A stretch of DNA of 64,000 nt, from NCBI GenBank assembly GCA_963170055.1, contig CAUJGJ010000040.1, positions 2,995,301 to 3,059,300 on the forward strand, read 5' to 3'. Each line of letters opens with the position of its first letter. Positions within the stretch are counted from its first letter, which is position 1. This DNA is from Halisarca cf. caerulea. Its lineage: Eukaryota > Porifera > Demospongiae > Chondrillida > Halisarcidae. Below the pieces are notes generated by a model. It was not told the origin of the DNA. It worked only from the letters and a program-made list of their open reading frames with translations, and made no database searches. Shown piece by piece: positions 21,669 through 50,925 of this stretch. The position numbers and the translations under genes are program-made.

Positions 21669-24600
21669 TACAGAACAAATTGTTCAGGAAGTTTCCACTG
21701 CGCCGTTCCGGAATGAATCTTAGATCGCATTGCAATAGGGAATTAGCTGGGAACCATGTAAGCTGAAATCCAACGCACTGTCACATGTTGCAGAATAAAT
21801 CGTTTGGCAAGTATCCGCTATATTGCTGAATGCACTGTCACATGTTGCAGAATAAATCGTTTGGCAAGTATCCGCTATATTGCTGGAGGAATCTTAGATA
21901 ACAAAGATTAGCGGAATAGTATAGTGCGTGTATTTGCACTAGTCACAATGCAAATTTCACACGCAGGTAGGTTATGTTCGAAATCAGGGAGGATTGTTTA
22001 TTGTAAAGCAAGATTGTTTACATAACAATTACTTTGTTTACATTAAAAGGAATTTCATGCTAGCCTCACATGATCTCAACAACTAAATGCCTTGAACAAA
22101 GGAAAATGCATCAAATACACTGAGAGGTTTCTTTGATGCTGATTGCATTAAGCTTCTCTAGAGACGATTTCGTTCATTTCAAATTTAGTTTAGCGGCTAT
22201 TCTGTCAATATGCATGGCAGTGTTGTTTGATATGACGTAATCAAATCACATGACTGCATGTGATGTCAACCTAAAGAGCAGACAAGGTCGACAAGAAAAC
22301 TTTAACGAAAATTCCGGTGGTAGAGATCTTTGAGTTTGGCTTTGAAACTTTTGTATGTTGTTCCTAAAGGACCAAACCTCCAAAATCGAATCTTGCGACT
22401 TTGTACGTCATCCCATTCCCGCTATGTCCAGTGTCTTGTAGCTGGGGACCTTCTTTTTCAGCAGAAAACCCTGGACATAACAGCCGTGGAAAGGAGCTGC
22501 AAGATGCAAGATTCGATTTTAAATTAGTAAGTTTTCAATCTGTACTTTCATTCAAACCTAGTTTTATGAGCAAAAGCCTGGATGTTTGTCATTTATAATT
22601 TTTTGGATATGGCAAAAGAAAACACGACATGCGTAACATGATCTTAGAACTTTCTTCTTAGCGAATCAGACACTAAGAATATAATATTATGTTATAGATA
22701 CGGTAAAATGTGTTTTTAGAACATCTACTAACATTCAAACAGAAAACAAGCCAAATATTTGAAGGACCACGAAGACGACCCCATTTTGTTTTATGTCCAT
22801 AAATTGGACATAACATACCTGAAACGAGAACACATCAACCACTGCAGACTTCAGGCTAACTTTGCAAAGAGCATTAGTCTATACTAAGTCTTTACAGCTC
22901 TTACATCTCTGAGGTAAGGTGCAATGGACAATTCGGATTTTGCAACACGTGGCAACTCCAGAACAAAACGGGTATACAGGGGCGTAGCTCCATTGTTTCG
23001 TAGTTGCCCGGAAACCCCTTGCTTTGAACCTCCCCATTATGTGAAACCACTTTCTTGCTAATTGCTGTATAATGATGTAATCAGCCCAGTCACTTACTCT
23101 AATTAAGTGTGCACAATGCGTGTATATTTCTGCTGTGATTCTGTGAAGCGATGGCGCGAAACGAACTATTCTTGATTAGTTTTCATGACGTGTTTATCAT
23201 CCTTCAGCTTTGTTCCAGTACCTTTAACTTATGGGCCAAATCAAGAAAAGAAACCAAAGAATAGCAGAGAACAGCCCTCTACTTTGAGACCCAAGATCAT
23301 TCTTCACCATGTGTTCAGGCTGAAGCAATAGCTCAGCCTAGAAATGATATTGGTACCTACGATGTAGAAACAGTGCAGAAATTGACAGATGATGAGAAGC
23401 TATGGCTTCTAAAAGGATGTTTTTAGACCCATTAGTAGTTATGCATTCGGTCATAGAGAAGAATATGGAAAGCAACGCACATTCCAATATTCTTGGCTGG
23501 CACAATTCTCTTGGCTTTACTATTCTGTGCCTAAAAAGAGTGGACATTGTGTGAATTTCTTTCTTTTTGCCAAGTCCAACATGCCTCTTGGTCAACTTGT
23601 CACATCGCCAATGACTAAGTTGATTACAGACTTCCGTGAAACGCATGCCGAGGTTGAGATTTTAGAAACCCCCTCCTTTTTTCCTGGCTACGCACCTGAG
23701 TATAGGCTGTTCACCAGACCACTTCTGGCCGACATTATGACGTCATAATTAAAAAAAATGGAGGCTAGAAGTAGGTCTGGGCAACGCAAGACTGGTGGAG
23801 ATATTATGTCCGTAAATATATTATGGTGTCACAAATTCCATAAACTAGTTGTGAACAAAGTTCAGAACCTCGCTGAATAAATTGAAACTTGGAATGGATG
23901 TGGGAATAGCAGCCATGTTTGTAATGGCGGTCGAAAATGGAGGGCGACATGGCGAATTTTCTGACTTCACGAAAAGAACCCCATTCTACTGGGCGAAGCA
24001 ATTCAGACAAAGCTTCGTTCCTTGTATTGATCTATAAGTCCACACCGTATATTAAAGTAGTTAAGACCCATAAATCTTGAGTATATACTGGGAGTGTAAA
24101 CGGACTGTAAATTTCTATCGAGTAGCTTGATTTTCGCTTGAATTTATGCATTAATTTGTAGCGCACACTTAACTAATTCTTTCACAGTACATTATCTGTT
24201 ATTTACCTTATATTTCGACCTGTGATTTACAACCAAAGACGTACTTTCGGGGCCCTTGTAGACTTTTATGGCCAATAATGCGTGGGCGACCAGGTTCTGT
24301 CTACGCTGAATGTGGCCAAGACACAGATGATGCTTGTTAGTATGAAGCATAGGGAGTCAGATTTATATGGTATCAGCATAATGGTTGGTGAGCATGAAAT
24401 AGAGAGGAAAAGGTGTGTAAAATCTTTGGGTGTTTACCTTGATGACAGTCTGAAGTGGCATGAACAGGTTAACGCCATATGTAGGAAGTGTTGGGCTGCA
24501 TTGGCAAGTCTCAAGCGATTCAGAAAGGTTCTTCCTGTCTCTCTGAAAAAGAAACTATACAACTGTATGGTCCTTCCACACTTGGATTACTGCTGTCTCA

Positions 24601-29262: not shown

Positions 29263-29610
29263 GTGATTTCTTCTGCAGTTACATCGGCTTTTCAGCATCT
29301 GATCACATCGTACCAGCATCTGAAAGAAAAACAGGCTGAAGCAGTTAAAGCACTACTTGCTGGCAAGGAAGTCTTTGCTCAACTTCCTACTGGATATAAA
29401 ACAACCATCCTAGCACTGTTGCCGCGAGCGCTCACTTTCGATTTCCTGCACTCCAAACCGCTTGGGACATGTCAAGTGTTGTGCCTAACTCCACTGATAT
29501 CATTGATGGAGGACCAAGCTGACCGTTTGCAGCAGATGGGCTTGAGAGTATGCATGCTTCGCGGAGGGATGGATCACCAGGCCACACTTCAAAGCTTTGG
29601 CAAGGAGGAA
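29263..29610 (+). pseudogene. RecQ-like DNA helicase N-terminal fragment
   Basis: After acceptor ttcttctgcag| the frame reads LKEKQAEAVKALLAGKEVFA then LPTGYKTT (Walker A; RecQ usually has LPTGYGKS), CQVLCLTPLISLMEDQADRL (motif Ia) and RVCMLRGG. This is the start of the RecQ superfamily II helicase core. The DEAH box and later motifs are absent: the frame runs out near 29610, where a different frame belonging to the DUF6589-like protein begins. The Gly-Lys of Walker A is altered to Lys-Thr by an apparent codon loss. Truncated and fused by rearrangement, not a working helicase. Confidence 0.7.
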
Positions 29611-31149
29611 CAAGAACGAGGCGTACACAAAGGAAATGATTGGCATTATGCAGGAACTACACAAGTATGTGTCGATGGTTAAGGAGCAGGTTCATGTGTC
29701 CATACCCAATGAGGAACAGATTACTGTGAGTAGTACAAAGTGGCTCTGCAGTATGGTTGCAACTTGACTTTATACACTTGGATATTACAGGTTTAAGAGG
29801 TCAATGTGCACCCCATACTCCTCGGAGGCGATCAGATCCCTGTTGCAAGAACAAGGTCTGCCCAGTTGAGCATGAGTGAAGAACTGACTGCATGCTCTCG
29901 CCTATAGGGTCTTGTGCCAATATTCGAGAACTGGCACATGCACTAAACAAGCTCTCTTAATTTTGAGTTCAAACTGTACACAAACAACCATCAGCACAAG
30001 TAATTGTATGGTTGCTTTTAACATGACTTAATGCCACATACAGGGCACATTTGCAAGGATGTATAAGAACACGGACTCCACACCTGGCACACTTAAACAT
30101 CTACGCAACGTGACCAATCGCTCAGCAGTGGGACCCGAACCTGCAAAGAACATAAATGCCACTGAAGCCCTTATGGAGGATATTTTAGCTACCTATGTCA
30201 TCCGAATGGCACTAATAATCCTAGGGCTAACAGCTGAAGAGGGATACAAGGGAGAGCGGGATAGCCATGATGTGAAACGACTGACCAAAGAAGTAGTGGA
30301 TCGTTTAACATGCCTAACAGGAGTGCCACCCTAAGACAAGGTTCTTCAACACACACAAGTACGTACACAATGACACTCAAAACCACTATATCTATTGTCC
30401 AAGACTAACAGGTCAACTACATATCTGTATTCAACTCACTCCCAGGAGCTATGTACCCTATGCTTCCTTTGGTTCCATTACCGGGACGTTACAAGGGAGG
30501 GGGATGGTGCAAGATTTAAGAGGACTACTTCACTTCCACTTCATGTTATGAAGAACACAGGCCGCAAAACTATGCAAGGGAGCTAGTTCAATTTATCATT
30601 GAGGTAAATTACACCATTTCTGAAAGACTGCAGAAAGAGGCACTATACATGAGGACGGTGAACAACCATGGAAGACGAGGGAAAAACATAGCATGCAACC
30701 TTACAATGGAACACCACAACAGGTACAATGAATTAATGTAGTAATCACAAATAATAAAATATGAATCACTAGCCTTACTCTGTTTCTTCAGATAATTGAA
30801 GAACTTCATAGGAGACTGCGCCTCGAACATCTCCAGAAAGGAAACTATCCATCGCTGCAGTTGAGGTTTGTACAGCCTTTGTAACATGCGCAGGCAGTTT
30901 GGCAATGATGAGGACACACCCGAAGGGCGTCACCAAAGGCCAGACGACATCCAACAAGACATTAAAAAGGCAGTGAAGTCCCTGGAGGCAGACCTTTTCG
31001 AGGTCATCGGGCGCACAATCCATCCCCTGGCAAAGAAGACACCATTGCTGCCTAATTTGAAAGACTCAAAAGATGTCAGAGACTTTATTAAATACTTGGA
31101 GAACGTTGTTGGAGTAGCTGTTGTGGAGTCAACTCTTCCAGCTCCTTGA
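29600..31149 (+). pseudogene. DUF6589-like element protein, decayed
   Basis: Pieces in order: 29600-29727 (YTKEMIGIMQELHKYVSMV, donor ACT|gtgagt); 29793-29960 (VHPILLGGDQIPVARTRSAQ, then RL-stop-GLVPIFENWH, where relatives have RLEGLVP; a GAG to TAG change near 29906); 30045-30334 (GTLKHLRNVTNRSAVGPEP, NINATEALMEDILATYVIRM); 30410-30720 (FRYRDV-like frame, YARELVQFIIEVNYTISERL, VNNHGRRGKNIACNLTMEHH); 30792-30850 (IIEELHRRLRLEHLQKGN); and 30880-31149. The GGDQ...RARGAQ...RLEGL(I/V)P..E(D/N)WH and NTHGR.G.NI..DL..EH blocks are what I recall for DUF6589 proteins, multicopy in cnidarians, sponges and fungi. Several frame changes and stops make it a pseudogene. Confidence 0.6.
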
Positions 31150-34044: not shown

Positions 34045-34590
34045 ATGGCGGCTTGGTTGCCATGCAAAGAGGCATGCTTCCCAATCGCAGTCGGCTGCTC
34101 CAGTGAAAATTTAGAGTAGTAGTAGATTCATTGCTAATTCTTTGGTTCTGAATGTATACCTTTAACGCACCATCGTCATATCATGTAAGCATCAACCAAG
34201 GAAACATGAACACTGAAAATGGGAATACTACTTATTCGCTGATTGGATACAGGTACTTAATATATAAATGTACCCAGTAGTACACAAAATCAAAGGTCAA
34301 GAAGACAATAATTGAACTCTTGCATGCGTAGTAAGCCAATGAACACCATCCCAGATATTAATCGTGCATTAGCTTGCATGCATAGTTTCAACAGTAAGCA
34401 ATGGTGTTGTCATGTGATCAGGTAAACACATGTACAGTAACACATCAAAAAACAATAAAAACAACAAACACAACATGTGGATAAACAGCATCAGTTACAA
34501 ACAGGACCTTGGTCACATCACATGATACAACAATACTGTACATTGGTACTGTGTATAGGATGGAGGGAGTGGGAGTGGTGGGGAACTTAC

Positions 34591-34623
34591 ATGTTTGAGT
34601 ACTCCTCGGTTCCAGATCGTCAA
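34591..34623 (-). CDS. Microexon cassette 1 (33 nt)
   Basis: Acceptor tgtttacttgcag|, donor |gtaagttcc. Only phase 1 is open: DDLEPRSTQT between split codons. The intron past the donor is the conserved ~120 bp block (CACCACTCCCACTCCC ... CATGTGATGTGACCAAGG) shared by all six cassettes. The exon is identical to the one at 36464-36496, within the segmental duplication. Confidence 0.55.
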
Positions 34624-34916
34624 CTGCAAGTAAACAATATATAAATACTAATAAAATATTGTAACAGATTGATAATACTTTACTTTCCAAAATGTACATT
34701 ATTATAATTTCCTAGCACAACATTAGCATCCTGAGTGAGATGGGTATAAGGCTATACAGTACATGGGGCTACATGGACACTGATCTGGGTGAACTGTGCG
34801 AATTCCCACATCGTGCAGCACAACCAACCTACCTCTATGCTCTAGCCCTATGTACGTCTCGTTCTTTGCAACAAACACTTATTTCAGAGACATTTCGAAA
34901 ATTGTAACTTCACAGG

Positions 34917-35337
34917 GTATTCATTTCAGTCCTCGCGTATAACAGTAAAATGGCCGTCGCGACATTTGACTAAATTTCATAGCATATTATGCCTCCAATA
35001 CGAATAAACTTATACAATACACTTTATAAAATTAAACAAATGTTATTGGTAGGAACACCCGAAGACGAAAATGTACGAAACAGACAAGTTTGAGGCAACA
35101 ACAAAGGAGCCATAAACTTTCGGTAAAAGACAGAAATTGCCATTTCCGGAGGAGAAGATGACCCTCTAGCTTCATAAAATTTACTTCAGTCGCTAGCAAA
35201 ATATCTGAACTATATGAATTTGCTTGTTGTTCATTATTATAACCTTGCTAAAACCATTTATTTGGAAAAAGACACTATTTTGGTGCCCAAATCACTAAAA
35301 AATAGAAACAAATACGGTATTTATTTTCGCTTACATA
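34917..35337. mobile_element. Family E fragment (left part)
   Basis: Begins CACAGGGTATTCATTTCAGT and follows 42179-42600 closely (AAATGGCCGTCGCGA, AGGAACACCCGAAGA, GAGCCATAAACTTTCGG), then stops at the edge of segmental duplication copy 2. A shorter piece recurs at 36553-36680. Confidence 0.8.
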
Positions 35338-35662
35338 GGTCAACATAGTTTGAAGTTGCCAAGTTGTCGCTCACAAAGTTGTCTGCACTATAGGAGGGAC
35401 AGGTGATGGCAGTCCACTGTGGAGAGGTTACAGAACCTGCAATTGCAAGGATAAGGACAATAAATGAGGACACATTGAATGTAATCTGGCTCAAAGGAGG
35501 GTATTCTAAAAGTTGGGCCCCCTGCATACTATAATATATAGTTTACAACATTATACTTTCTCTCCACACAGGTCTCAGTATAGATTGAAGATGCCAAGTT
35601 GAAGTTCTCAAAGTTGTCCGGACTAAAGGAGGGACGGTTGATGTCAGTCCACTGTGGAGAGG

Positions 35663-35938
35663 TTACAGAACCTCAGTGCCCATACACTCTTTCATGGACT
35701 TGCTGACACTCAAGTCCACGGGTTGTAATCTATCAGTGCAGTTTGCAGGTACACTTACGAAATGGATAGTAATCTCTTCTACGATTCTCACGATCCCCTC
35801 TATTCGTTGGCTATTGAAAACATCAAAAATTGCTAGAGCCGCTTGATCCACTAGGAGCTCAAGTTCCTTACATCTGTCTTGCACATACAGTAAGATGATC
35901 GTTTTGATGTATTCAATCATCTTGACTTCATTCGACCA
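35663..35938 (-). pseudogene. pogo transposase C-terminal fragment (duplicate)
   Basis: Repeats KMIEYIKTIILLYVQDRCKE through CTDRLQPVDLSVSKSMKEC of the copy at 33047-33340 with few changes (LELLVD for LELPVD, VSKS for VNKS). It carries two of the three catalytic acids only. Part of segmental duplication copy 2. Confidence 0.88.
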
Positions 35939-36463
35939 GTGGTTGACCAGTGACCAATCGCAGTCGGCTGCTCCAGTGAAAATTTAGAGTAGTAGTAGAT
36001 TCATTGCTAATTCTTTGGTTCTGAATGTATACCTTCAACACACCATCGTCATATCATGTAAGTACCAACCAAGGAAACATGAACACTGAAAATGGGAATA
36101 CTACTTATTCGCTGATTGGATACAGGTACTTCATATATAAATGTACCCAGTAGTACACAAAATCAAAGGTCAAGAAGACAATAATTGAACTCTTGCATGC
36201 GTAGTAAGCCAAAGAACACCATCCCAGATATTAATCGTGCATTAGCTTGCATGCATAGTTTCAACAGTAAGCAATGGTGTTGTCATGTGATCAGATACAC
36301 ACATGTACAGTAACACATCAAAAAACAATAAAAACAACAAAAACAACATGTAGATGAACAGCATCAGTTACAAACAGAAACTTGGTCACATCACATGATA
36401 CAACAATACTGTACATTGGTACTGTGTATAGGATGGAGTGGATGGGAGTGGTGAGGAACTTAC

Positions 36464-36496
36464 ATGTTTGAGTACTCCTCGGTTCCAGATCGTCAA
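36464..36496 (-). CDS. Microexon cassette 2 (33 nt)
   Basis: Same exon as 34591-34623 (DDLEPRSTQT in phase 1), with acceptor ttacttgcag| and donor |gtaagttcc. Its flanking intron differs from cassette 1 by a few bases only. Confidence 0.55.
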
Positions 36497-36679
36497 CTGC
36501 AAGTAAACAATATATAAATACTAATAAAATATTGTAACAGATTGATAATACTTAACTTAAATGTACGAAACAGACAAGTTTGAGGCAACAACAAAGGAGC
36601 CATAAACTTTCGGTAAACGACAGAAATCGCCATTTCCGGAGAAGATGACCCTCTAGCTTCATAAAATTTACTTCATCTA

Positions 36680-38613
36680 GTATGAATGATTCTGGCAGCT
36701 TAATGCGATTTATAATCGGACAGTTGCCTCATATCTTTTCATTTGCAGCAAAAAGTCCTATTCTATTTCCAAGAGATTCTACAAGGTAGTCAAGAGAAAA
36801 TTTACATAACATAGTAGATGTTTCAGAGATAGCTGAAGAAGTGGATGCTAGAATTTTACCACCCAGCAACAAATACCTTGGCACACTACACGCATTTATT
36901 TGACAAAAAAATGGAATAACACGCTATTTCTCCAGTTTACATGCATTTCTCCAGTTTAAATGGGGTATAAGTCTATGATTTTTTCCGCAAAACTCGATTG
37001 TGCTATTGCAGTTCAAAATTATGGACATTGTAACTAGTATGCATAGAACACTGTAGGTGGCCGAGTCAGACAGAGTAAAAATGACATGTATTATTTGTGG
37101 TAACAAATTGGCATCGAGAAATCGCTTCAATACCATAAAGCAGGTACGCAGTTTGGAGCTTTTAATCAAATTTCAAGCTTGGCACAAGCTTTCAAACCTT
37201 CTTTGCCTCCACTTTGAGGGTTTAAGGGAGTATTCCCAACTCTAGAATGATAATATTTAGGATGATGTTCAGATTGACTAGTTAGTTATAGTTCTTCACT
37301 GCATGGTGGGTATGTTCATGTACAATGAGCTCACAACAGAAACATAAAATCTTCACATTAGACACATCCAGCAAAAATTAAATACACCAACTGACTAATT
37401 CCACATAAAGATAATCGTCAACTGCCTATGTCTGCAAAAATGTAGTACTGTAGAAATTCGAAACGCATCATATGCTCAGATTTCGTTACAATCTACCAGC
37501 ATATTGATTTTTGAAAAGAATACTTTAGCAAATCCCAAAATTTGAGAAGGCCATTTTTTACTGAGGCTATGGTGGTCAAGTAGCTTTATAGTGTGTATTG
37601 TGCAAAGTAAATGGCTCAACATGAAGAAGTTTACCCCATTTCGACTTTAGTCAAAGATTCAAGGTTACCTTATAAGCTTTACTTTGAAATGGGGCCATCA
37701 AGCTTTGAGAGTGCATACTTCGTATAGACAGACTAGCTTTCTGAGAAACAGGTAATAAAATCTCAGTGCCAACTACAATTGAACCTAATCAATTGCAACA
37801 ATGAGCAATGTTGCAGCTGTGTACAATTCTAGTACTACCAAACCTGTGGATTTTTGGAATGAAGTTGTAAATTTTTGAAAACCAAAGCTTTCCAGAAGGT
37901 TGGGATGTTCATGAAATTCACAAAAACATTACTCTGTTAAAATTTCCCTTCATTTGGTAGCACTGTTTTGTATCAGTGTGGTGTAGAACTTGCACATAGC
38001 ACACAGCGATCTAACGAATTCTTTGAGAATAACTTCAACAGAACCAATCAGTATTCTTCATGCCCTTGCACAATTCTCACCTAATAATGCACCCTTATCT
38101 GAGGTACCACTTTTCTGTTCCTGACTGCTGGCTGTCTGTGCTACACATGTACAAGGCAACAATGAGAATAAGCAAAACTGGCAATGAACCTCGCAAAATA
38201 TATGCATATTGGTTTTATCTTCATATCATTGCCAACATGACGTGTGACACTATTGTCAAATTGTCTTTACTGTGGAACGTACGTATATAGAGAGAATGAA
38301 ACTGTGAATAGGCAGGATTCAAATGCTAAGAGCATGATGCAAGACAGCAGACAATGTTTTTTAACGTTACACATATACAAGGCTATGGTGAAGATCAGTA
38401 AAGTGAACTGAGAGTGAAACTCATATAATATATATATTGGTATTATCTTCATATCAACAAAATTTAATTGTGTGATATATGGTCAAAATTTCTGTATGTG
38501 TAGAAAGATTGTATATACCATATATTTTAGCATGACATCATGAAACGTGTTCATACCGTGGCTCATTGTCTTGTTGTATGTGGCGTACATAAAAATAGTA
38601 CATTTTGTCAACA
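36680..38613. other. No gene seen
   Basis: AT-rich DNA without a recognised frame or repeat. ORF-length stretches near 37057 and 38060 have no similarity I can name and no splice-site support. Confidence 0.4.
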
Positions 38614-39373
38614 CAGGTATGTTATGGCAGAATTGAGGCTAAAAGGGGGCGTTTTGTGGTTTAACAAGCTATGCGATTAGATTATTACGCCTCCGACAGT
38701 TTATCACGGTCTGGCCATGTGACCACAGCTTAAACACGACAATTATACGTCATTATAGGCTAATACGCGCGAGTATTTGAAGAGTTTGCCTTCGTGGACA
38801 TGTGATATCATGTGACAAATGCCTAAAGAAGCACTCCAGTCCACAAGGATTTTATGGCGAAAAAGGCGCGGGTCTAGATCTCTATGTAGACACTTAAAAC
38901 TTTGTCAGATTATCGCTGAAGGGCTGAACTTGAAATTCTGATTTGGGGAAGATTGTCGATCCATCTGTTCAGTTTATGTGCAGCCATTTGTTGCCATAGC
39001 CGTTCTTCGTGATCAGAAATCCTTGGACATAACAGCCGTGGAATGGATCAGCGTTTTCCCCAAATCAGAAAGTAAGATTTGGACATGTTCTGTCTTCTGA
39101 ATTCACTTGCGCGTTTAAATTCAGTTGTCTAGACCCGCGCCTTTTGCGTTTTTTGCTTATTTTAGTATGTTTAAAAATCGACCATGTACAGCACGTACAA
39201 TATGTTTTTATTTCTTTAAATTACATATGCACAAAATAGGAATGTTCGAAATACTATCTAGATGCTTTCTTCAGTCTTTCCACTTTCAGGAAGAGAAAAC
39301 AAGGCATTTTATACTAGCCATTCGAAAGCGGCAGCCATTTTGTTTTATGGCGAAAAGTGCCATAACATACCTG
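38614..39373. mobile_element. Family A element, copy 2 (760 bp)
   Basis: Begins CAGGTATGTTATGGC and ends GCCATAACATACCTG. It is almost the exact reverse complement of 9636-10394, including internal CCAAATCAGAA pairs and GGACATAACAGCCGTGGA. Noncoding. Confidence 0.88.
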
Positions 39374-40197
39374 CGAAGGTTACGAAAGAAGTATGAATCT
39401 ATATCTATCATTAAATCGTAATATGTTGTATCATATTTTCAGTCAGGTTTGTCTGCCATGTCCCAAAGGTCGTTTTCATCCCTGTCAGACACCATGAATG
39501 GATAACTATTTGAAGAAGATTGCGTCAGTTTCAATTGCACAGATTATGTATGGAGCTGAAATTGAAACCTCAACTGAGAAAGTGAAGGTCATATAATAAG
39601 TTCACAGCACAAAACATAAACTGCATAGCCACAATACACATACAATACACATGCCACAATAATTGAAAAACTCCAACTGCCTACATTATCTGCAATAATC
39701 CTCAACTGCTTCTGTCCACAACACTTTCCAAGCACATGACATCCTTTATTCTGAAGCTATCTTTATTTCTACTGAACTCTGGCTAAGAACAACCATGAAC
39801 TCACATAATTCCAAAAGTTCAAGTGAATTATTCAGAACAAAGTCATGTACAGTCTTTGGGCAAGATCTAATTCTCTGATCCTGAAAAAAGGATTCACCCC
39901 CCCCCCCCCCCTTCTCCCATACTACACACCATCTCCCTATCGCATGCCTGGACCAACCAATGAAAGTGTGCAAATATAATGACAGAAGAATGTGACAGTC
40001 ATAGCCAACAGTACAACACATGCAACCGGGCACACATATACACAAGCATAATATACATCAAAACAATAAAGTTAACACAACATGTGGATAAACATCATCA
40101 GTTACAAACAGAACCTTGGTCACATCACATGATACAACAATACTGTACATTGGTACTGTGTATAGGATGGAGGGAGTGGGAGTGGTGGGGAACTTAC

Positions 40198-40218
40198 TTC
40201 TTCTAATCTCTTCCTCCT
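40198..40218 (-). CDS. Microexon cassette 3 (21 nt)
   Basis: Acceptor ggttacttgcag|, donor |gtaagttcc. Phase 1 encodes EEEIRR; phase 2 meets a TAG. The same conserved intron block follows the donor (40070-40197 on the plus strand). Confidence 0.55.
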
Positions 40219-40495
40219 CTGCAAGTAACCAATAGAAACATCATAAAATATAGTACAAAAAATGTGTTATGTGTGTAACATTTATTTATGACAAAAGATT
40301 ATAATATTATTATTACTGGAAGCCCTATTACCGTATACTGTATTGTCTAAAAATTCGGCATTCAATCTATAAGTTTGTCCAAAAATATCTTTCTACTACA
40401 AATTATTCTAAAGTTAGTCAAGATATCCTGTCTCCAAGTAATTGTTGTTTTTATTCTAACATTACGCCATGCCTTCTATAATCTAACGGGGAGGT

Positions 40496-43002
40496 GTGCT
40501 CCCCGTTTGGAGCTATTTCGGCATGTCTTCAGGAGCGAATCAAGATGAATCACCCATTTCGCGCAGATCACTGCGTTTACCTCTTTCACCGTACACTCCT
40601 TCAACCCCAGACTACATGGACACTGACCCAGAAGATGACGGCACTGTGTATCGGAGTCCCATTGATTCAGAAGTTGTCCAGATCAGCTCTAGCCCAGACA
40701 AGGAACCTCCGAAGAACAAGCTAATCACTGATTATTTCGCAACCAAACAGAGTCAAATCCCAAGTAATCAACAAGGAATCCCAAACTTTTTGGCACATTT
40801 CAATCCATGCAGTGAACCGGCACACTAATCATACAGAAGGTGGTGATATTATTATTTCCGTGCAACCTGAACCCAAACAGCCACGATTGCAGACAGAGAA
40901 TGCCCCAGTAAAGAGACCAACTGTGTACCAAACTTACACTTAGGCTAAAAACTTGAGGTTGTAGCTTATGTGAAAGCCACTAGTGAATCTCTGGCTGCTG
41001 AGCACTTTAAAATGCCACGAACAACCATCTCAGGCTGGAGGGGCTTAGACTTGACGTCGAAAGCCAAGGCTAAAGGGAAACACAAAAAAGGGCAGCACCT
41101 GTGAAAAGAATCCAGTCGCGGCGGTAATCATATCCCAGGGAAGTCGACGAGGACATTTTATGCTGGATCCTGCAAAGAAGGGACTTACACTTGCCTGTTC
41201 AACGTGGATCCATCTGCCAGTACGTAAAGTCTTTGATTTTACCGCACAACCCACTTTTTTCTGCCTCCATTGGGTAGTTGGAGAAGTTTATGATTAGGCA
41301 TTCATCATCCTGAGATGGGCAACATCGATTCAGCAGAAGATGCCTGCTTAACTGCAGAAGAAGGTGGAAACCTTCCTACAGGAACTCACTGCTATTCGGA
41401 AACATCACCACTTCAGCAATGATTGTATGGTTCGACATGCCCGACAACTACACTGTTGCCAAAAAGGGCAATAGGCAAGTACACATTTGTGGCACTGGGT
41501 CTGACAAAAAGTGAATTTCTTTGGTATTAACTACAACTGCATCAGGGACACGTTGAAGCCATTGGTTATATTTTTTTAAGAAAGGACTTGTTTGATCTAC
41601 AGCAAAATTGTGGTGGTGTCCATGTAGCGCTTCTTTTGTCAAGTAATGGCCATGCACTGTTGATGGGAAATGAACACCTTTGGTTGAGCGTACTGTCTTC
41701 CCTTTCAAAGCACACTGAACTTGGACACTACCTTTTGGTATTTGACACATTCAGTGCTCATCTAACAGATGAAGTAACTGCAATGCTGGCAACGAAAAAT
41801 ATACGAACAGCTGTCATTCCTGGTGGATGCACAAGCAAGATCCAGCCTCTTGACATGTCGTTGAACAAACCGTTCAAAGCGATTGTGAAAAAGCAATAGG
41901 AGCAGCACATGCATGAACATGAAGCCATGGCAACTACATCCAACGGTAAGATTTATCAACCAACAAAATCAAACCTTGTAGGATGGGTGCATGAAACTGA
42001 TGATCATCTCTATGAACAGAAGAATGCAATTGTAAAAGTATATATTTAAGGTCTGTGGAATCAGCAATGCACTAGATGGAAGCGAAAACCATTTCATTAA
42101 TTGTGCCAACGACATTGTGGATATCACTATCCCATATGGTGCTGACCTTGATGCTGAAGACTCAGAGGATCCTTTTCACACAGGGTATTTATTTCAGCCC
42201 TCGGATATAACAGTAAAATGGCCGTCGCGAAACTTGACCAATTTTCTTAGCATATTATGATTCCAATACGAATAAACTTATACATTACACTTTATAAAAT
42301 TAAACAAATGTTATTTGTAGGAACACCCGAAGAAGAAAAAGTACGAAACAGAGAAGTTTGAGGCAACAACAAAGGAGCCATAAACTTTCGGTAAAAGACA
42401 GAAATTGCCATTTCCGGAGGAGAAGATGACCCTGTAGCTTCACGAAATTTACTTCAGTCGCTGGCAAAATATCTGAACTATATGAATTTGCTTGATGTTT
42501 ACTATTATAACCTTGTTAAAACCTTTTATTTGGAAAAAAGCACTTTTTGGTGCCCCGAAATCGGCAAAAATGGAAACAAATAAGGTAATTACTTTCGCTT
42601 ACCTTATTATAGCATTATTCTACAAGCAGAATCCTATAGCCAAGACTACATTAAATGGAAAAGTTAGACAAACAGGAAAGTTGTAGGGCATTTTCTCCTC
42701 CGGAAAAGCTGATTTCTCTTTGCCTATTAAAAAACGGCCATTTTGATGACGTATCGTGATGCGGGGCTGTGACATCACTAACATTGATATCTACTTATAA
42801 TGGGGCACTTTCAGTGACGTTCTCATTTGTATGACGTAGTTTACAATTTGTGGTGACGTTGTTTACTGTTAGGGGTGACGTTGTTTATAAATTTGGTGCG
42901 TGCACGCCCCAAATCCCAAGCAGCTGTGGGCTGAAATAAATGCCCTGTGCAGTCTGAGGATGACAGCAGCGACTCTGAAACAGACTCAGATAACTGATAG
43001 GT
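40496..43002 (+). pseudogene. Second pogo/Tigger-type transposase, degraded and interrupted
   Basis: Acidic N-terminus 40496-40828 (SSGANQDESPISRRSLRLPL, TDYFATKQSQIPSN). HTH region around 40960-41260 in shifting frames (MPRTTISGW, WILQRRDLHLPVQRGSICQY, NPLFSASIGWLEKFM). Catalytic region 41430-41900 (WFDMPDNYTVAKKG, LLVFDTFSAHLTDEV, IPGGCTSKIQPLDMSLNKPF). C-terminal part 41900-42178 (KQPTKSNLVGWVHE-like, FKVCGISNALDGSENHFI). The reading frame is cut at 42178 by a family E insertion and resumes at 42950 with SEDDSSDSETDSDN before the stop near 43000. There are many stops and frame changes. The family has DDE_1 endonuclease and CENP-B-like DNA-binding domains. Confidence 0.85.
42179..42949. mobile_element. 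Family E element, copy 1 (771 bp), in the pogo gene
   Basis: Termini CACAGGGTATTTATTTCAGC and GCTGAAATAAATGCCCTGTG; flanked by CA on both sides. Removing it and one CA restores an uninterrupted acidic reading frame (DPFQSEDDSS), so the boundaries are secure. No protein inside. Confidence 0.92.
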
Positions 43003-43171
43003 AATTGTTACAGTATCAGTGTTGTTTGAGCTACTTATAACTATGCATAAGTATTATGTTCATTTGCTACAATGTTCATAGATCATAAAAACAAAATTAT
43101 AATAGATAATTGTTATCTATGATCAGTATATTTACTGATTCACTATACGTATAACTGATCTAAGTACATTT

Positions 43172-43560
43172 GCACATTACCGTATTAGACATTATTATTC
43201 CTTGAAATGATCTCTTTGAGTATCTTGATATATGTTTCCTCTTGCCTGTGCACTTCAATTCACATGGAACATCCATGCCCCCTACATCCACACAGTACCT
43301 CCGTACCCCAATTACACTTGCTGTCATTGTACCATCATGTGCTAAGAAATAGTAGAAGGTCCGCATGTCTACGCATGGCAAATGACAGACTATCGTACCA
43401 TTTGTCTTCTTGCAGGCAATTGCAAATAGATCATGTTCGTTCTCTTAATTCTTCATACTCGCATTGTAGGATTCCTCCGACTACTGGATTCCATATGTCC
43501 TTGCAGATATGTTGGCCACAAACAAGCGATTTGAATGTAGTTTTGAATTCAGACACCATT
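43172..43560 (-). pseudogene. HIRAN-like domain remnant
   Basis: Two frames: VCGQHICKDIWNPVVGGILQ, then after a frame change NEHDLFAIACKKTNGTIVCH, RTFYYFLAHDGTMTASVIGV and DVPCELKCTGKRKHI. The pattern WxPxxGexLxCexE..N.hDpFAVav.k.g.iVGHvPr...FLxxgG.i...v.G.RR...DlpqgG.evPC resembles a HIRAN-like domain common in multicopy sponge and cnidarian genes. It has a frameshift near 43430 and no flanking exons were found, so it looks broken. Confidence 0.55.
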
Positions 43561-43599
43561 TAACAAATTGTGTAATATAGCCATATCTAAATATTCAGT

Positions 43600-45120
43600 G
43601 TCTCTCAGTTTACGTTCAAAAAGTCAAAGTATTCGTCGGGTGGTTTTAATCCATTCCAAAATATTCATATTCCGCCGTCTGCTGGATTATTTTGCAAAGT
43701 AGGTGTGACAAATTTTTAGAGAACATACGGTAGCTTTCTAGTAATTATGAACTTCATTACAGCAGGAAATGAGCGGGTTGGCATTATGCTGATCAGAGTC
43801 ATACATTTCAGGGAGATATTTTGCTGTGGTCTTGAAAAAAGACACATGTGCCTCCAAAGCTCAATTACACTCGACAAAAACGGTTCTAGCTGTACATAAT
43901 TGAGGTAAAGTCACATCATGGTGGTAAAATACTCACTGTAAGAAGATAGGACTTCAACATGTAAAGATATGATTACTCTAAAGGTCTGTTCTTCACTTCT
44001 AAAAGCTCCAACTATATAAAGCTAACTTGGGTAGTATGTATACTAACCATGATAATCTGAGATACAACATCTCTAATTTGACTCAATGTGCCATAAGTAT
44101 TTACTGCATGGAAATTAGCACATTGCCGAAACAGTCTGAGTATGTACTTCCGAATCAAAACTTATACAAGTACTTCAAAGTAAAAACATGCCTGATGACA
44201 GGATCGTACCACCTTTGTTTAAATTACAAATTTGTGGTGTGCAAGCCTTAGGATGATCAAGCATGGTATTATCCTTGGATGTTTAGCTTGATTGTTTTTT
44301 TGGATTCAGTATTATTTTTCAAGCTTAAGATATATATGTACAGTATGTTGGAAAATTAATATTCTGTCGACTCTATATTTACACACTGCATGCACCTCAT
44401 TATAGAGGAAGGGAGCAGAAGTGACAATTCTCAAGTTCATGAGTAGCTTACACTTCTTATTGGTTTTGTTTATCAATGATGATAGTACTGCTTTAGAAAG
44501 TAGTCTGGAATAGCCTCACATAGGCAGATTGCAATATTGATTCCCTAATATGTAGGGACTACTATTGGAGAATAGGTCTGGATGGCAGAGACAATGTTTA
44601 AAAATTTGTCACTAGATTTCTTGTAATTGTACAATAACAATGAATATCCAACTTAAGACGTTCAAACTAGTAACTACTGTAGAACAAGATCGCCTCTTAG
44701 ACTGAAACAAGTTTTAAATTAGCAGAGAAACTTCCCATGCAGCTGCTATACACTCCCCAGCACCAGCATGCCTGGTATTGACACTATACTTGACTGCTTA
44801 ATATCGAACCAAGACATTTGCTAATAATATTATTATTGTTTGTAAACATTTTCTAATAAATGGTATGCATGTATTGTCAATAGCTTCAAAGATTTCCAGT
44901 CGATAAGGAAGAAAACAAACTGCTGAGAATGGTACAACCCACTCTTTCTGGGTCACTCTAGATATAAATGGACACATTAACTTAATATCATTAGTCAATG
45001 TAGGGACAATTTCATCCACTAGGACAAACAAACACTTCCTACACAAAGTGGATCAAACATTGCACAATCTATAGCTTAAGAACCCAATTGCTTTATAGTA
45101 ATATTAAAACTTGTGACCCC
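43600..45120. other. Noncoding, part of the cassette duplication units
   Basis: No gene seen. From about 43980 the sequence is shared with 47539-47800 (GTCTGTTCT...AGCTAACTTG) and 44380-45070 with 46560-47280 and 48730-49440 (CCTCATTATAGAGGAAGGGA variants, CCAGCACCAGCATGCCTGGT). These are ancient copies of the DNA around each microexon. Confidence 0.6.
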
Positions 45121-45273
45121 AAAAGAATGACACACATCAAAACACACCAAATACAACATGTGGATAAACAGCATCAGTTACTAATAGAACCTTGGTCACA
45201 TCACATGATACAACAATACTGTACATTGGTACTGTGTATACGATGGAGGGAGTGGGAGTGGTGGGGAACTTAC

Positions 45274-45297
45274 TTCTTGTTGTAAAATCTTCTATCT
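45274..45297 (-). CDS. Microexon cassette 4 (24 nt)
   Basis: Acceptor tttactggcag|, donor |gtaagttcc. Phase 1 encodes IEDFTTR. The conserved intron block lies at about 45140-45273. It belongs to duplication unit 43.98-45.42 kb. Confidence 0.55.
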
Positions 45298-45558
45298 CTG
45301 CCAGTAAACAATGGTCATCATCATAAAACATAGTGCAACAAAATAAATGTATAACATATGTAACATTATCATCATATTAATGACAAAAAGTCATTATATA
45401 TTACTATAACTGGAAGCACTGTTCGTTTTCTAGTAATTAGAGATGTATATAGGACAGAAGATTAATGGAAAATAGGCATATAGAGGTATCATATAGCTTG
45501 CGCAATCAACCACTGTTGCTGAGTCCAGTTTGTCAGGTGTACCTCAATGCAATGCATG

Positions 45559-46317
45559 CACAGGGTGTTTATAACCGTCTGTTGCTTGTTCCGATTGTGG
45601 GCGGTGCTTGTTTTCTACGTCATCAATTAGCGGCTGTTTTTAATGCGTCATTTGGCGTCTTTCAGATGACGTACGAAAATTCACGTATCGACAGAATGGG
45701 GGAAGAAGGCGACTTTTGTGACGTTTTGCCTACGTATCCGTGAAACGTCACGAAAATGGCAGTTTTGTTGAGGGCGAAGATGAAGTCGCTTGGTTAGACC
45801 TCAGATGCCTTCGAATCTCACCAAATCCAACTTCGATGGAATCTTAAGATGTTTCGGTTTGCGAAAATCGTTCCGGGCATAGTGCTACAATCAAGCAGTT
45901 TTTGGCAATTGGACCATTTATGCTAAATTTTGGCCGTTTGAAGGGTGAAAAAACAGGTTTTTCGGTTATAACTTTCTTACAGAAGATTATAACCTATAGC
46001 CCGGAACGATTTTCAGATAGCTCACCACTTGTTCTGTCTTTTCGTGTTGTTTGATGGGAATTGAGAGGGATCTGAGGTCTAACCAAGGCGAAGTTTGTCT
46101 AAAACTGCTATGTATTCCTAGCTCGCTATCTTCCTTCAAGCAATAGAAACAATCGCTAGTTAAGTACCAACATGCGTGGAATATATACAACTTTCGTCCA
46201 GTAGGAAGAACTGGGCGAAAATCTGGTCAACGAAGTAGAAACGATCGATAATTTGTGACGCTATTTCAAGACGGCCATTTTTGCATTTTATTCCCGGACG
46301 GTTATAAATACCCTGTG
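45559..46317. mobile_element. Family E element, copy 2 (759 bp)
   Basis: Ends CACAGGGTGTTTATAACCGT and GACGGTTATAAATACCCTGTG, flanked by TG on both sides. Shares its interior (TTATAACTTTCTTACAGAAG, CTTGGTTAGACCTCAGATGC) with copy 3 at 49571. Confidence 0.9.
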
Positions 46318-46319
46318 TG

Positions 46320-47480
46320 TGTCACAATCTCATAGACTGCTTACATTGTAGGGATGTTTGGTACATACATAGATATAAGGCTAGACACACATGGGGCACG
46401 GGACGCTGATCTATATAGAAGAGTTCAGGTGGACTGGGTGCAGTAAGCATACTCCTATACATCGTGCAGCACAACCTACCACTGCACATGGTACAGGATT
46501 GTATCTGTGTGATGTAGGTACGTAGTTATGTTCAAAGTATTTTGTTGACTCTACATTTTCACAAAGAACCTCACTTTAGAGGAGGGAGGGACAAAGTTAG
46601 TCGCAATTATCAATTTCGCGAGTAGCTTTCACTTCATCTTTGGGTTGCTTATCAAAGTGATGACACTTATTTACTAGAGAGTAGTCCGGAATAGTCTCGC
46701 ATAGTCAGAGCACAATATTGTTTCCTTAATATGCAGGGGTTACTATGTGAGAAAGGCTCTGGATGGCCAAGAGACAATTTCTTGAAGATTCCGTCACTAG
46801 ATTCCTCCTAGCTGTACAATAAGAAGGAACATCTAACATCAGACGTCCGAACTACAGTAGAGCAAGATCACCTCTACAACAATGAAGATTTGCAGAAAAA
46901 AATTGCCATGCAGCTGCTATACACTCCATATGAATGCCCCAGCACCAGCATGCCTGGTAGTGACACTATATATACTTGACTGCTTAATATTGAACCAAGA
47001 CATTTGCCAATTTTATTGGTATTACCGTTGTAAACATTTTGCAATATATGGTTCGTACGTATCATCAACAGTCACAAACATTTTGAGTCAGTAATGAATT
47101 AAACAAACTGCTATAAGAATACTATGACCCACCCTTGCTGGGACACTCTCAAGCGATCGACATACTAACTTTGTCTATACGAGAAGTGAATACAAAATAC
47201 ATACCAAGAAACAATTTCATCCACTGGGACAAGAAAACACTTTCTACACAAAGTGAACCAAATATTGTGCACTCTAAAGCCATGGAACCCAAATGTTTTA
47301 GACTCCTAATTTAAAAATTTATGACCCCAAAAATGCAAAACACAACGAAACACACCAAACAATAATATGTGGATAAACATCATCAGTTACAAACAGAACC
47401 TTGGTCACATCACATGATACAACAATACTGTACATTGGTACTGTGTATAGGATGGAGGGAGTGGGAGTGGTGGGGAACTT
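46320..47480. other. Noncoding, cassette duplication unit
   Basis: No gene. 46560-47480 parallels 44380-45270 and 48730-49570 with substitutions and small indels. Confidence 0.6.
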
Positions 47481-47482
47481 AC

Positions 47483-47503
47483 GTAGTCTCAACCTTTTCC
47501 CTC
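47483..47503 (-). CDS. Microexon cassette 5 (21 nt)
   Basis: Acceptor tgtttacttgcag|, donor |gtaagttcc. Phase 1 encodes GKRLRL, basic rather than acidic. The same intron block follows the donor. Confidence 0.55.
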
Positions 47504-47896
47504 CTGCAAGTAAACAATAGAAACATCATAAAATATACTCTAAAAGTCTGTTCTCAACTTGTAGAGTTCCAACTGTAAAGCTAACTTGCAATTGGGTAGA
47601 ATGTATAACCTGGGACAAAACATCTCTGCCTTGCTGATGTGCTATAAGACCTTTACTGGGCCCTACAGTACATTTGGCAAAACAGCTTGAGTACTTCGAA
47701 TCAATAACTCATTAGCGATTTTCAAATTAAAAATGACTGCTGACATGATTGAACTGCCTTTTCTAATAAGATTAGCTTGTGTGCAAGGATCGGTCAAACT
47801 TGGTACTTTGCCTACATGAAGAGCTCGATTGTTCTTTGGGTTTGATATTTCAAGCTTATAAGGAACATAGCTACGTATGTGCAGTATATGCAAAAA

Positions 47897-48237
47897 CAAG
47901 TAATTCGAGTTAAAAACTCTGCCGCCTCACATGCTCTAATTACTTGCAAAACATTGAAGGGTTAGTGCGCAACTGAACATTCATTGAACATACTGTTTAT
48001 TGTAACTGGACGATTATTTTGAAAACAATTGCCATATTTGGCAATTGTTTTCAAAACAATTCCTATAACTCATTTCTGTATAAATTCATACTTCTCTATT
48101 ACTATTATATAAATTCTCTATTATACGACTTTACTTTAAATCTGTATTGTATATCAAGCCCGTAGGCAGGATTTTCCAGAGGGGGGTTACATTTCAGATT
48201 TCCGCAATCTCCCTTCACATGCACGCGTGCACACGCA

Positions 48238-48307
<70 letters not shown>

Positions 48308-48615
48308 ATACATTGACCCCCTATGCAAAATACCTTCAAAACTACCCACAGTGCAAACGAGTTACAGAATACATAGTACAAAATGTCACTATGATGGTAA
48401 ATGACATCCTCACAAAATGGAGGCCAATTGCAATCAGGTAGCGTTCTGGGTAGCGCTTAGTGATAATAGAGCAACAAAACAAAGGGAAAAGGTGCCTAGT
48501 GGGTCTAAATAAGGCTACATACTCCTTTAGAACCTTTTAGGACTTACTTTTTATTGATTGGTGATTCTTAAGGGGGGATTCGTCCGAACCCAACGAACCC
48601 CCCTTGGTTACAGGC

Positions 48616-48649
<34 letters not shown>

Positions 48650-48720
48650 CATAATAATATGTATACTTCGGACGAGCATTACACACTGGATGTCCAAATA
48701 AAACAATAGCAGCCCCTAAA
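47897..48720. mobile_element. Family B copy 3, split by a family D insertion
   Basis: Left part 47897-48155 (CAAGTAATTCGAGTTAAAAA, central palindrome at about 48012-48063) and right part 48660-48720 (GGACGAGCATTACACACTGG, GCAGCCCCTAAAAATAG) together make one B element. Between them lies D (48158-48619). Confidence 0.8.
48158..48619. mobile_element. Family D element with (CA)n core
   Basis: Left end GCCCGTAGGCAGGATTTTCC then GGGGGGTTACATTTCAG; right end AACGAACCCCCCTTGGTTAC then AGGCCTG, imperfectly inverted. A (CA)n tract fills 48236-48305. It interrupts family B copy 3. Confidence 0.65.
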
Positions 48721-49570
48721 AATAGTCTACTCTAATTATTCACAACACACCTCATTCTAGGGGAGAGGGAAAAATATTCGCGATTTCAACTTCATGGCTA
48801 CTTTCACTTCTTCATTGGTTTATCTTATCAATAATGATGGCACTTCTATGGACAGTAGTCTGGAATAGTCTCGCATAGCCAGACTGCAATATCGTTTCCC
48901 TAATATTCAGGGACTACCACATGAAATGGGTCCGATAGGCAGAGAGACATGCAATTTCTTACAGATTGAATGAACTAGTTGTACTGTAACAATAAAAAGA
49001 ATACATCACATCAGATATCAATTTGAAATCAGTAGAACAAGATCGCCTCTTAGACTGAAACAAGTTTAGCAGAGAATCTTCCCATGCAGTTGCTATACAC
49101 TCCCAGCACCAGCATGCCTGGTAGTGACACTATACTTGACTGCTTAATTTCGAACCAAGACATTTGCTAATAATATGGTTTGTGATCGAATACTTTCCAT
49201 TATACGGTATGTATGTATCATCAATAGTCACAACGATTTCGAGTTGATAATGAATAAAACAAACAGCTGAGAATTTTACAACCCACCCTAGCTGGGACAT
49301 TCTTGATTGATTGACATACTAACTTAGCCAACTTACCATTAGTGAATGAAGATACAACTTCCTCCACTAGGACAAGCAAACACATCTGACACAAAATGAA
49401 CTATTATTAACATTGTGCAATCTATAGCCAGAGAACCCAATTGTATTAGTACATGAAATCGTGTGACCCTCAAAATGTGTAACACATCAAAACACAACAA
49501 ACACAACATGCATGTGGGTAAACAACATCAGTTACAAACAGAACCTTGGTCACATCACATGATACAACAA
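48720..49570. other. Noncoding, cassette duplication unit
   Basis: No gene. Parallels 44380-45260 and 46560-47460. Its conserved intron block (49510-49570) is cut by the family E insertion and continues at 50846. Confidence 0.6.
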
Positions 49571-50845
49571 CACAGGGTGTTTATACATGTCTGTTGTTTG
49601 TTCCAATTCCGACGAAATTTCACATATCAACAGAAGGGGGAAGAAGGCGACTTTTGTGACGCAATGCCTACGTTCCGTGAAATGTCACAAAAATGGCAGT
49701 TTTGTTGAGGGCGAAGTTACAGTCACTTGGTTAGACCTCAGATGCCTGCGAATCTCACCAAATCCAACTTCGATGGAATCTTTTAGTTAAGATGTTTCGG
49801 TTTATGAAAATAGTTTAGGGCATAGTGTTACAATCTAGCAGTTTCTCGAAATTGGACCATTTATGCTAATTTTTGGCCATTTGAAGGGTGGAAAAACAGT
49901 TTTTTCGGTTATAACTTTCTTACAGAAGATTATAACCTATAGCCCGAAACGATTTTCGGATAGCTCGCCACTTGTTCTGTCTTTTCATGTTGTTCCACGT
50001 GAATTGAGAGGGATCTACAGGTGAGACCAAGGCAAAGTTTGACTGAAACTGCTATGTATTCCTAGCTCACTATCTTCCTTTGGACAATAGAAACAATAGC
50101 TAGTTAAGGTGGTGGGTCGGTCTGCCCACGCAATTTTTGCAAAAACTTGAGCTGTTCTATCGATGTTACTGAACGATATTAGTGCCACTACTCTAAACCT
50201 GTGCAGGCCAAAGAATAAATGAAAAAGTCATTCACTGCAGCAGAAATGAAGCTCTTTCCGTTTGGCGTACTTTGACGATTTATCCAGTCAAATTGCAACG
50301 TAACAAGTGCATTTGGACACAAACTTGTAGCTTACCCTCGTATTTCAGATCATATGTATGGAATTTAGGAATCTCCTCGGTTTAACAGAAAATCAACTAT
50401 TTTGCATTGCTGCGGGTGCAAAATCGCCATTTTGGGCATAGTTCAGGTGTCGTGGCGTAGTGGAAGAACAAAATTTCCGCAAATCCATTCATACGATCAT
50501 TCACCATGCATACTCAGATGAACGCTCAGTCGAATTTTGGCGATAACTCTGGGCCTTATGCAGGAATAAAGCATCAAAAATGGTACAACGATGATCAAGT
50601 ATACAGTTTTGTGTGGTGTAATAATTATTATATTCATTGCCTGATAAATATATACATAGCTGTTGTAAATGGCGGCTGACCTGCCACATTAAGTACCAAC
50701 ATGCGTGGAATATATACAACTTTCGTCCAGTGAGAAGAACTTGGCAAAAATCTTGTCAACTAAGTAGAAACGATTGATAATTCGTGCTGCTATTTCAAGA
50801 TGGCCATTTTGTATTTTATTCCTGGACGGTTATAAATACCCTGTG
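49571..50845. mobile_element. Family E element, copy 3 (1275 bp)
   Basis: CACAGGGTGTTTATACATGT to GGACGGTTATAAATACCCTGTG, flanked by AA on both sides. It interrupts the cassette intron block (GATACAACAA | ACTGTACATTGG), whose uninterrupted form is seen at five other places. About 520 bp longer than copies 1 and 2. No transposase frame was found. Confidence 0.92.
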
Positions 50846-50904
50846 AAAACTGTACATTGGTACTGTGTATAGGATTGCGTGAGTGGGAGTGGTGGGGAAC
50901 TTAC

Positions 50905-50925
50905 TTTCTTCCATCACTTCCTCCA
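50905..50925 (-). CDS. Microexon cassette 6 (21 nt)
   Basis: Acceptor gctttcttgcag|, donor |gtaagttcc. Phase 1 encodes EEVMEE; phase 0 has a TGA. It is the first cassette after the longer exon at 51220-51291 in the direction of transcription. Confidence 0.55.

Follow-up and report, generated by a model that had tools for sequence, protein, structure and literature searches.

A window of 64,000 nucleotides from the sponge Halisarca cf. caerulea (GCA_963170055.1, contig CAUJGJ010000040.1, here C40, positions 2995301-3059300) contains an array of six duplicated cassettes, each carrying a microexon of 21-33 nt on the minus strand. An earlier account of this stretch, made from its letters and here called the sequence-only reading, had described the cassettes as a set of peptide variants spliced combinatorially, and we compared them with one another and with the whole genome of 194 Mb in 454 contigs. 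All six segments lie where they had been placed: U1a (50925-50905, 21 nt, EEVMEE), U1b (47503-47483, 21 nt, GKRLRL), U1c (45297-45274, 24 nt, IEDFTTR, acceptor ggcag), U1d (40218-40198, 21 nt, EEEIRR), U1e (36496-36464, 33 nt, DDLEPRSTQT) and U1f (34623-34591, 33 nt), and phase 1 is the sole frame open in all of them. U1e and U1f have the same sequence because a segment of 617 bp was recently duplicated (34081-34697 and 35954-36566, 96.4% identical in a self-comparison). The array is preceded on the same strand by an exon of 72 nt with phase-1 ends (exon 1, 51291-51220), the likely start codon of which is at 51280-51278 (MSDVLKNKWSKKDDHNIYEL...).

Each microexon is followed by a conserved block, exemplified by that of U1b (47482-47381, minus strand), which recurs after other microexons. 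The claim that this block is nearly identical in all six cassettes holds to about +100 for five of them, whereas in U1a the likeness stops at +59. Self-comparison, genome matches and alignment indicated that the U1a block is split by an insert of ~1.27 kb (50845-49574, no strand assigned), parts of which resemble 46317-45673: positions 1-59 and 55-102 of the block match on either side of the insert, and the remainder resumes at 49573. The flank copy at 48.7-49.6 kb is therefore U1a's own downstream flank, and the three larger flanks (44.4-45.3, 46.6-47.5 and 48.7-49.6 kb) are copies as described, with 73-77% identity. A candidate extra microexon of 30 nt (49369-49340, minus strand, EEVVSSFTN), read by eye, is without the conserved block, and its copies near 47.2 and 45.0 kb have no in-frame donor there. 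Related inserts at 50845-49574 and 46317-45559 have ends like CACAGGGT...ACCCTGTG, and one of the two splits a cassette block. Fragments of a DDE_1 transposase, probably of the Tigger/pogo type, lie within or beside the array at 33667-33047 on the minus strand (Pfam 0.0011, below the cut-off) and at 41531-41899 on the plus strand (9.6e-9).

Across the genome the 102-nt block gave 38 matches, a lower bound as are all block-match counts here, and these were confined to C40 (2.60-3.05 Mb) and two further contigs, C227 and C124. A microexon adjoined 35 of the 38, and the other three were exon-less remnants (C40 3044826, C40 2603531 and C227 69017). The pattern TTACTTGCAG-N(15-36)-GTAAGTTCC matched exactly at 23 sites in 194 Mb, none of them outside the clusters on C40 and C227; the spacers measured 21 nt (17 cases), 24 nt (1), 27 nt (3) or 33 nt (2), and the reversed control gave no match. 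Altogether 37 microexons were read (33 cassettes in genomic DNA, three from the pattern search and one later). Besides the six of the window (U1) there are four in U2 (C40 2.974-2.969 Mb), six in U3 (C40 2.807-2.773 Mb), seven in U4 (C227 59-77 kb) and eight in U5 (C227 224-237 kb), and single or paired microexons occur at C227 32 and 34 kb (two), C40 2.605 Mb (one), C40 2.909 Mb (one) and C124 (two). By sequence comparison, the window array is one of at least five tandemly duplicated microexon arrays in a clustered gene family.

All 37 microexons are 21, 24, 27 or 33 nt long and open in phase 1, so that the in-frame, multiple-of-three character noted for the window holds genome-wide. Among the 36 that entered the statistics, which omit the one read later and comprise 34 unique sequences, none has a stop codon in phase 1, in comparison with 16 in phase 0 and 22 in phase 2. 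When the 34 unique exons were shuffled, a mean of 14 had a phase-1 stop; the minimum in 20,000 shuffles was 4 and zero was never reached. Splice-site dinucleotides are usable in all 37, including a GC donor in U2d and a shifted donor in exon X2 of C124, which is 21 nt only via an upstream donor and 25 nt via the donor homologous to those of the other cassettes. The exons encode 6-10 whole residues with the consensus hydrophobic-EEELRR, one heptad per 21 nt. In the 26 distinct 21-nt exons, glutamate occupies residue 1 in 17 and residue 2 in 21, arginine or lysine occupies residue 5 in 18, and residues 3 and 4 are variable. What the microexons encode is probably a charged helix, one heptad in size, that precedes a ROCO-type GTPase. 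We also considered a variable helical face, since most steps fall on the junction residue (15) and on heptad residues 3 (13) and 4 (15), versus 5, 1, 5 and 6 at the others, and rejected it: the clustering is not significant because 7 of the 35 residue triples would share one face.

The exon-1 pattern had eight matches in the genome, every one lying 5' of microexons, and the acceptor, the ATG and the donor are conserved in all eight copies read, so that each of the five arrays is preceded by an exon with a conserved ATG. The window exon and its copy at C40 2975.9 kb differ in length by 15 nt, in frame. Several copies were found in one cluster (C227 221.8, 223.8 and 230.3 kb; C40 2.8119 and 2.8103 Mb), which may give some arrays a choice of first coding exon.

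The manner in which exon 1 ends restricts the combinations that can be spliced. The window copy ends in T and three of the six window exons (U1b, U1c and U1d) start with AG or GA, so that direct joining yields TAG or TGA. Any subset could therefore be included without loss of the reading frame, as had been proposed, but only 36 of the 64 ordered subsets in the window are free of stops. The corresponding counts for the other units were 16 of 16, 32 of 32, 128 of 128 and 246 of 256, on the assumption that the downstream exon starts with AT, with the sixth exon of U3 left out and the T-ending copies of exon 1 used for U5. Exon starts that produce a stop after T are rare, being present in 4 of the 34 unique exons (U1b, U1c, U1d and U5h) versus 55% of internal dinucleotides, and because of this deficit the junction codons look as if they were under selection. 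Since junction stops arise in the window, free combination is disfavoured, and inclusion is likely to be serial or of a limited alternative kind.

The introns next to the microexons were said to be more conserved than the exons themselves, and pairwise comparison of the cassettes bears this out. In an alignment of 31 cassettes, which omits the two of C124, the mean pairwise identity was 0.90 over the 20 nt directly upstream of the exon, 0.78 over the next 20 nt further upstream, 0.52 within the exon, and about 0.4-0.6 past +140, where the alignment is unsure; it was 0.82-0.95 over +1 to +100, although this is partly ascertained since the downstream block was itself the query that identified the cassettes, with the upstream side and the exons outside it. 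The conserved frame of each exon spans ~40 nt upstream and ~100 nt downstream. Far flanks could be aligned in 198 of the 465 pairs, and 92 of these have exons of equal length. For these 92 the mean identity was 0.83 in the far flank, 0.61 in the exon and 0.92-0.93 in the near flanks, and the exon was less similar than the far flank in 86. In the 38 pairs with 21-nt exons and far flanks at least 0.85 identical, the exon was 3.8 times more different per site. Exons of close cassettes are thus about 2-4 times more divergent than their distant flanks.

Similar results were obtained with a tree inferred from the flanks of 12 close cassettes, selected for alignable flanks from the 26 with 21-nt exons. 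Relative rates on this tree were 1.16 for far flanks, 0.37 for near flanks and 2.96, 3.69 and 1.30 for codon positions 1, 2 and 3 of the exon. By parsimony there were 2.9 steps per exon site versus 1.3-1.4 in the far flanks, and the exon took 60 steps in all, whereas none of 336 windows of 21 sites in the flanks took more than 49. When 24 of the 26 cassettes were used, the codon positions kept their order (1.19, 1.68 and 0.59). In ten disjoint pairs, 24, 31 and 19 of 70 sites differed at codon positions 1, 2 and 3, with 6.7 expected from the flanks. The synonymous sites of both glutamate codons were nearly unchanged on the 12-cassette tree (1 and 0 steps), which may reflect an exonic splicing element. 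On these comparisons of pairs, flank tree and disjoint pairs, the diversification of exons is well supported among close cassettes, and we regard their acceleration there as firm on the alignments at hand. That amino-acid selection drives the change is likely and not proven.

A Roc exon with a phase-1 acceptor is the next recognisable exon after the microexons at three other places, 1.6-6.3 kb on: at C40 2.967 Mb (1.7 kb), C40 2.771 Mb (1.6 kb) and C227 243.7 kb (6.3 kb). Because exon 1, the microexons and the Roc exon each start or end in phase 1, all are in phase with one another. A profile of 54 homologues of a GTPase exon in the window matched part of the Roc domain of LRRK2, over 77 positions (E 2.5e-5), and Pfam matches to Roc in the GTPase exons were below the cut-off. 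As in ROCO proteins, a Roc GTPase domain is present and a COR domain is predicted to follow it: in Foldseek searches, the predicted model of the homologue P0030 (mean predicted local distance difference test score, pLDDT, of 77) matched RocCOR (3dpu, E 2.5e-10) and COR (3dpt, E 2.4e-8), as well as LRRK1/2. Pfam matches to COR-B were below the cut-off (E 0.0012, 0.015 and 0.052) and there was none for the homologue P0002. The Roc exons at C227 and C40 2.771 Mb are more distant from the window-type group (~37-42% identity over 53-67 residues). A Death domain was found neither by Pfam in the C-terminal exon of the window gene or its three paralogues nor by a profile search of the PDB, which gave nothing below E 0.79; the model of this exon had a pLDDT of 49, and the label Death was given only by eye. 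Comparison by profile of the C-terminal exon with a weakly Death-like exon likewise gave no match.

We therefore weighed an explanation in which the transcript would run from exon 1 through one or more microexons to the Roc-COR GTPase and a helical C-terminal domain, the array encoding a variable charged helix between the N-terminus and the GTPase. The ~40 nt upstream and ~100 nt downstream would be held constant because they are required for the splicing of so small an exon, and selection would diversify the peptide, which may serve an intracellular receptor as its face for recognition or partner choice. We put the probability that the in-phase arrays are such a selection-diversified, spliced N-terminal helix of a ROCO-type GTPase at roughly 0.6.

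Several observations count against it. Over all 31 cassettes the exon identity of 0.52 is close to the background of ~50%; the pairs used above are not independent, and choosing them by flank similarity lowers flank divergence. In the 24-cassette set the exon rate (1.29) was no higher than in the far flanks (0.96 upstream and 1.37 downstream), the latter probably being inflated by misalignment. In the disjoint pairs, third positions likewise differed more than the flanks (p 2e-5), and positions 1 and 2 surpassed position 3 only weakly (p 0.10), so that amino-acid selection is no more than likely. Other copies of exon 1 have A or C as their last letter, so the argument from junction stops is fully valid only for U1, U2 and part of U5. 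Nor is the GTPase always at hand. Of five Roc exons listed on C40 and C227, only that at 2.967 Mb has a block match within 10 kb upstream. At C227 52-77 kb the nearest long open reading frame in sense orientation is ZU5-like (E 0.0028, below the cut-off) and not Roc. At C40 2.77 Mb a weakly Death-like exon sits between the last two microexons, and the last of these may for that reason belong to another gene. In the window, a CBP/p300-like gene separates the array from the next Roc exon on that strand, ~43 kb past the last microexon; any link of the window array to a GTPase is thus tentative, and the array may be an orphan or decaying member of the family. A wider claim is tentative and, as we judge it, doubtful: that animal ROCO-type receptors vary an N-terminal recognition helix heptad by heptad through selected 21-nt microexons under regulated splicing, within a near-invariant intronic frame of ~140 nt, and that this arose independently of Dscam and of the brown-algal LRR-ROCO genes (LRR, leucine-rich repeat).

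A live rival proposes that cassettes swap or shuffle their short exons while gene conversion homogenises the flanks, with no selection on the amino acids. It would account for the raised third positions in the disjoint pairs, and it is in line with look-alike exons in different units (U3d and U5h both encode EEERRR, and U5c encodes EELKKT where the microexon at C40 2908540 encodes EELKKN) and with the recent tandem duplication in the window. However, a conversion tract that spans both flanks should also cover a 21-nt exon, whereas the variability stops at the splice sites; pure homogenisation of introns, which the sequence-only reading had offered beside exon diversification, does not explain a variable part that ends at both of them. 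The trees also speak against exchange, with rates at codon positions 1 and 2 that are 2-3 times that at position 3; we consider exchange unlikely, if still a serious contender.

In Dscam, clusters of tandem variable exons are accompanied by common intronic elements, and the common block after each microexon raises the question of mutually exclusive splicing of this kind, in which base pairing between the block and a docking site would select a single microexon for each mRNA. A role of the block in splice choice had been suggested from the window. Of the four units scanned, three have imperfect complements of the segment +66 to +82: one in U2 (C40 2975477, 2 of 17 mismatched) and one in U4 (C227 58289, 3 mismatches), both within the intron that leads from exon 1 to the first microexon, and two in U5 (C227 236660 and 233726, 1 and 3 mismatches); the observed blocks gave 2 matches per 17-mer, and the highest 15 of 60 shuffled blocks gave no more than 1. 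Duplex energies for U2 and U5 were above those of all 8-12 shuffles in three of six tests, but shuffles reached the other three of the six block pieces. The U5 sites lie among the microexons, and the window array has no complement of this segment at up to 3 mismatches. RNAalifold on 24 blocks produced a weak fold with covariation at 0 of 20 pairs, so that the suggested folding of the block revealed no covarying structure, and the window had no Rfam match at gathering scores. The docking complements are a weak and inconsistent lead. Moreover, U1b, U1c, U1d and U5h would meet a stop if each were the only microexon joined to a T-ending exon 1, and the exons are far smaller than those of Dscam. 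Mutually exclusive splicing is thus an improbable account of these arrays.

The arrays could instead be relics, unspliced exon debris kept alike by recent duplication. Besides the transposon-like insert and the transposase pieces in and beside the array, and the three window exons that cannot directly follow exon 1, this draws on the state of the neighbouring gene. Upstream of exon 1, on the minus strand, lie a Roc-type GTPase exon (57514-55964), 84% and 68% identical to two uninterrupted homologues, and the C-terminal exon of the same gene (54255-54010). The frame breaks near 56.0-55.9 kb and there is a stop in the COR end. The array had been supposed to be joined to this gene as its 3' part, which is ruled out: in three paralogues a stop codon closes the C-terminal exon, and a conserved phase-1 donor was not seen there by eye; the array begins instead after its own ATG-bearing exon. 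Against decay, all 37 exons retain the frame and usable splice-site dinucleotides, and the near flanks change about three times more slowly than the far flanks, so that we hold the relic explanation to be quite unlikely. That the block is an ordinary dispersed repeat with an edge mimicking splice sites is very improbable indeed, many copies notwithstanding, because the exact cassettes are confined to the clusters, with block matches on 3 of 454 contigs and none of the exact pattern in the reversed control, and because the frame is kept.

The CBP/p300-like gene on the minus strand of the window consists of a Q-rich exon (21780-20332), a TAZ1 zinc finger (12853-12389; Pfam 5.8e-9, match to p300 with E 4.5e-14) and a weak KIX-like stretch (4731-4330; E 0.11). 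Its Q-rich exon likewise starts in phase 1. A search for the histone acetyltransferase domain of such a gene matched in 0 of 14 control genomes and hence carries no information. On the plus strand there are a likely reverse-transcriptase end of a long interspersed nuclear element (24279-25229, by eye) and a fragment of a DEAD-type helicase (29263-29682; Pfam 8.4e-10). A separate cluster of eleven related Roc-type exons was observed on the plus strand of contig C3 (0.53-1.56 Mb); the one at 1033.7 kb seemingly starts in phase 1, and no such cassette occurs in the preceding 4.7 kb.

No account of such arrays in animal ROCO genes was found in the openly accessible literature. If the spliced-helix reading is right, the arrays would make a candidate source of diversity for an animal lineage that lacks antibodies, and a test bed for the recognition of very small exons, with the intronic frame fixed and the exon free. 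They suggest a means of varying one end of LRRK2-type GTPases. Comparing exon codon positions with flanks is also a simple way to seek such arrays elsewhere, where exons as small as 21 nt will probably escape gene finders.

Three known systems bear comparison. The micro-exon genes of schistosomes have very small symmetrical exons, added or dropped without frame change, and a high ratio of nonsynonymous to synonymous substitutions (dN/dS); their coding region consists mostly of microexons and their products occur in secretions (PMC4350168). The small same-phase exons with lengths in multiples of three are shared, here by 36 of 36 and one more, but in the sponge they would form a small N-terminal part of a large GTPase, in whose inferred model the Roc exons span several hundred residues, and the start peptide is hydrophilic. 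In the ASSET (accelerated segment switch in exons to alter targeting) of snake venom genes, exons change faster than introns between duplicates (PMC2711939); those are venom proteins, however, in which segments switch within ordinary exons and not as whole microexon arrays.

The nearest precedent is the exon arrays of brown-algal LRR-ROCO genes. There, each exon of 72 bp, in phase 2, codes for a single leucine-rich repeat, and the exons are shuffled, alternatively spliced and carry positively selected sites (PMC11378527; Zambounis et al. 2012 cited there). Both have tandem short exons of one size and the same phase, one repeat each, upstream of a Roc-COR GTPase. Diversifying selection acts on the algal exons; here the exons outpace their flanks in close cassettes, with a codon-position excess that is strong in one test and weak in another. 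The sponge exons differ in being 21-33 nt long and in phase 1, in encoding a charged heptad and no leucine-rich repeat, and in lying in a genome with animal-type genes, and the sections of the algal account that were consulted do not mention hypervariable exons flanked by conserved intron sequence. If the reading holds, ROCO GTPases would have come twice, independently, to carry arrays of exons that are short, in phase and fast-evolving, the sponge case being in an animal and with one heptad per exon.

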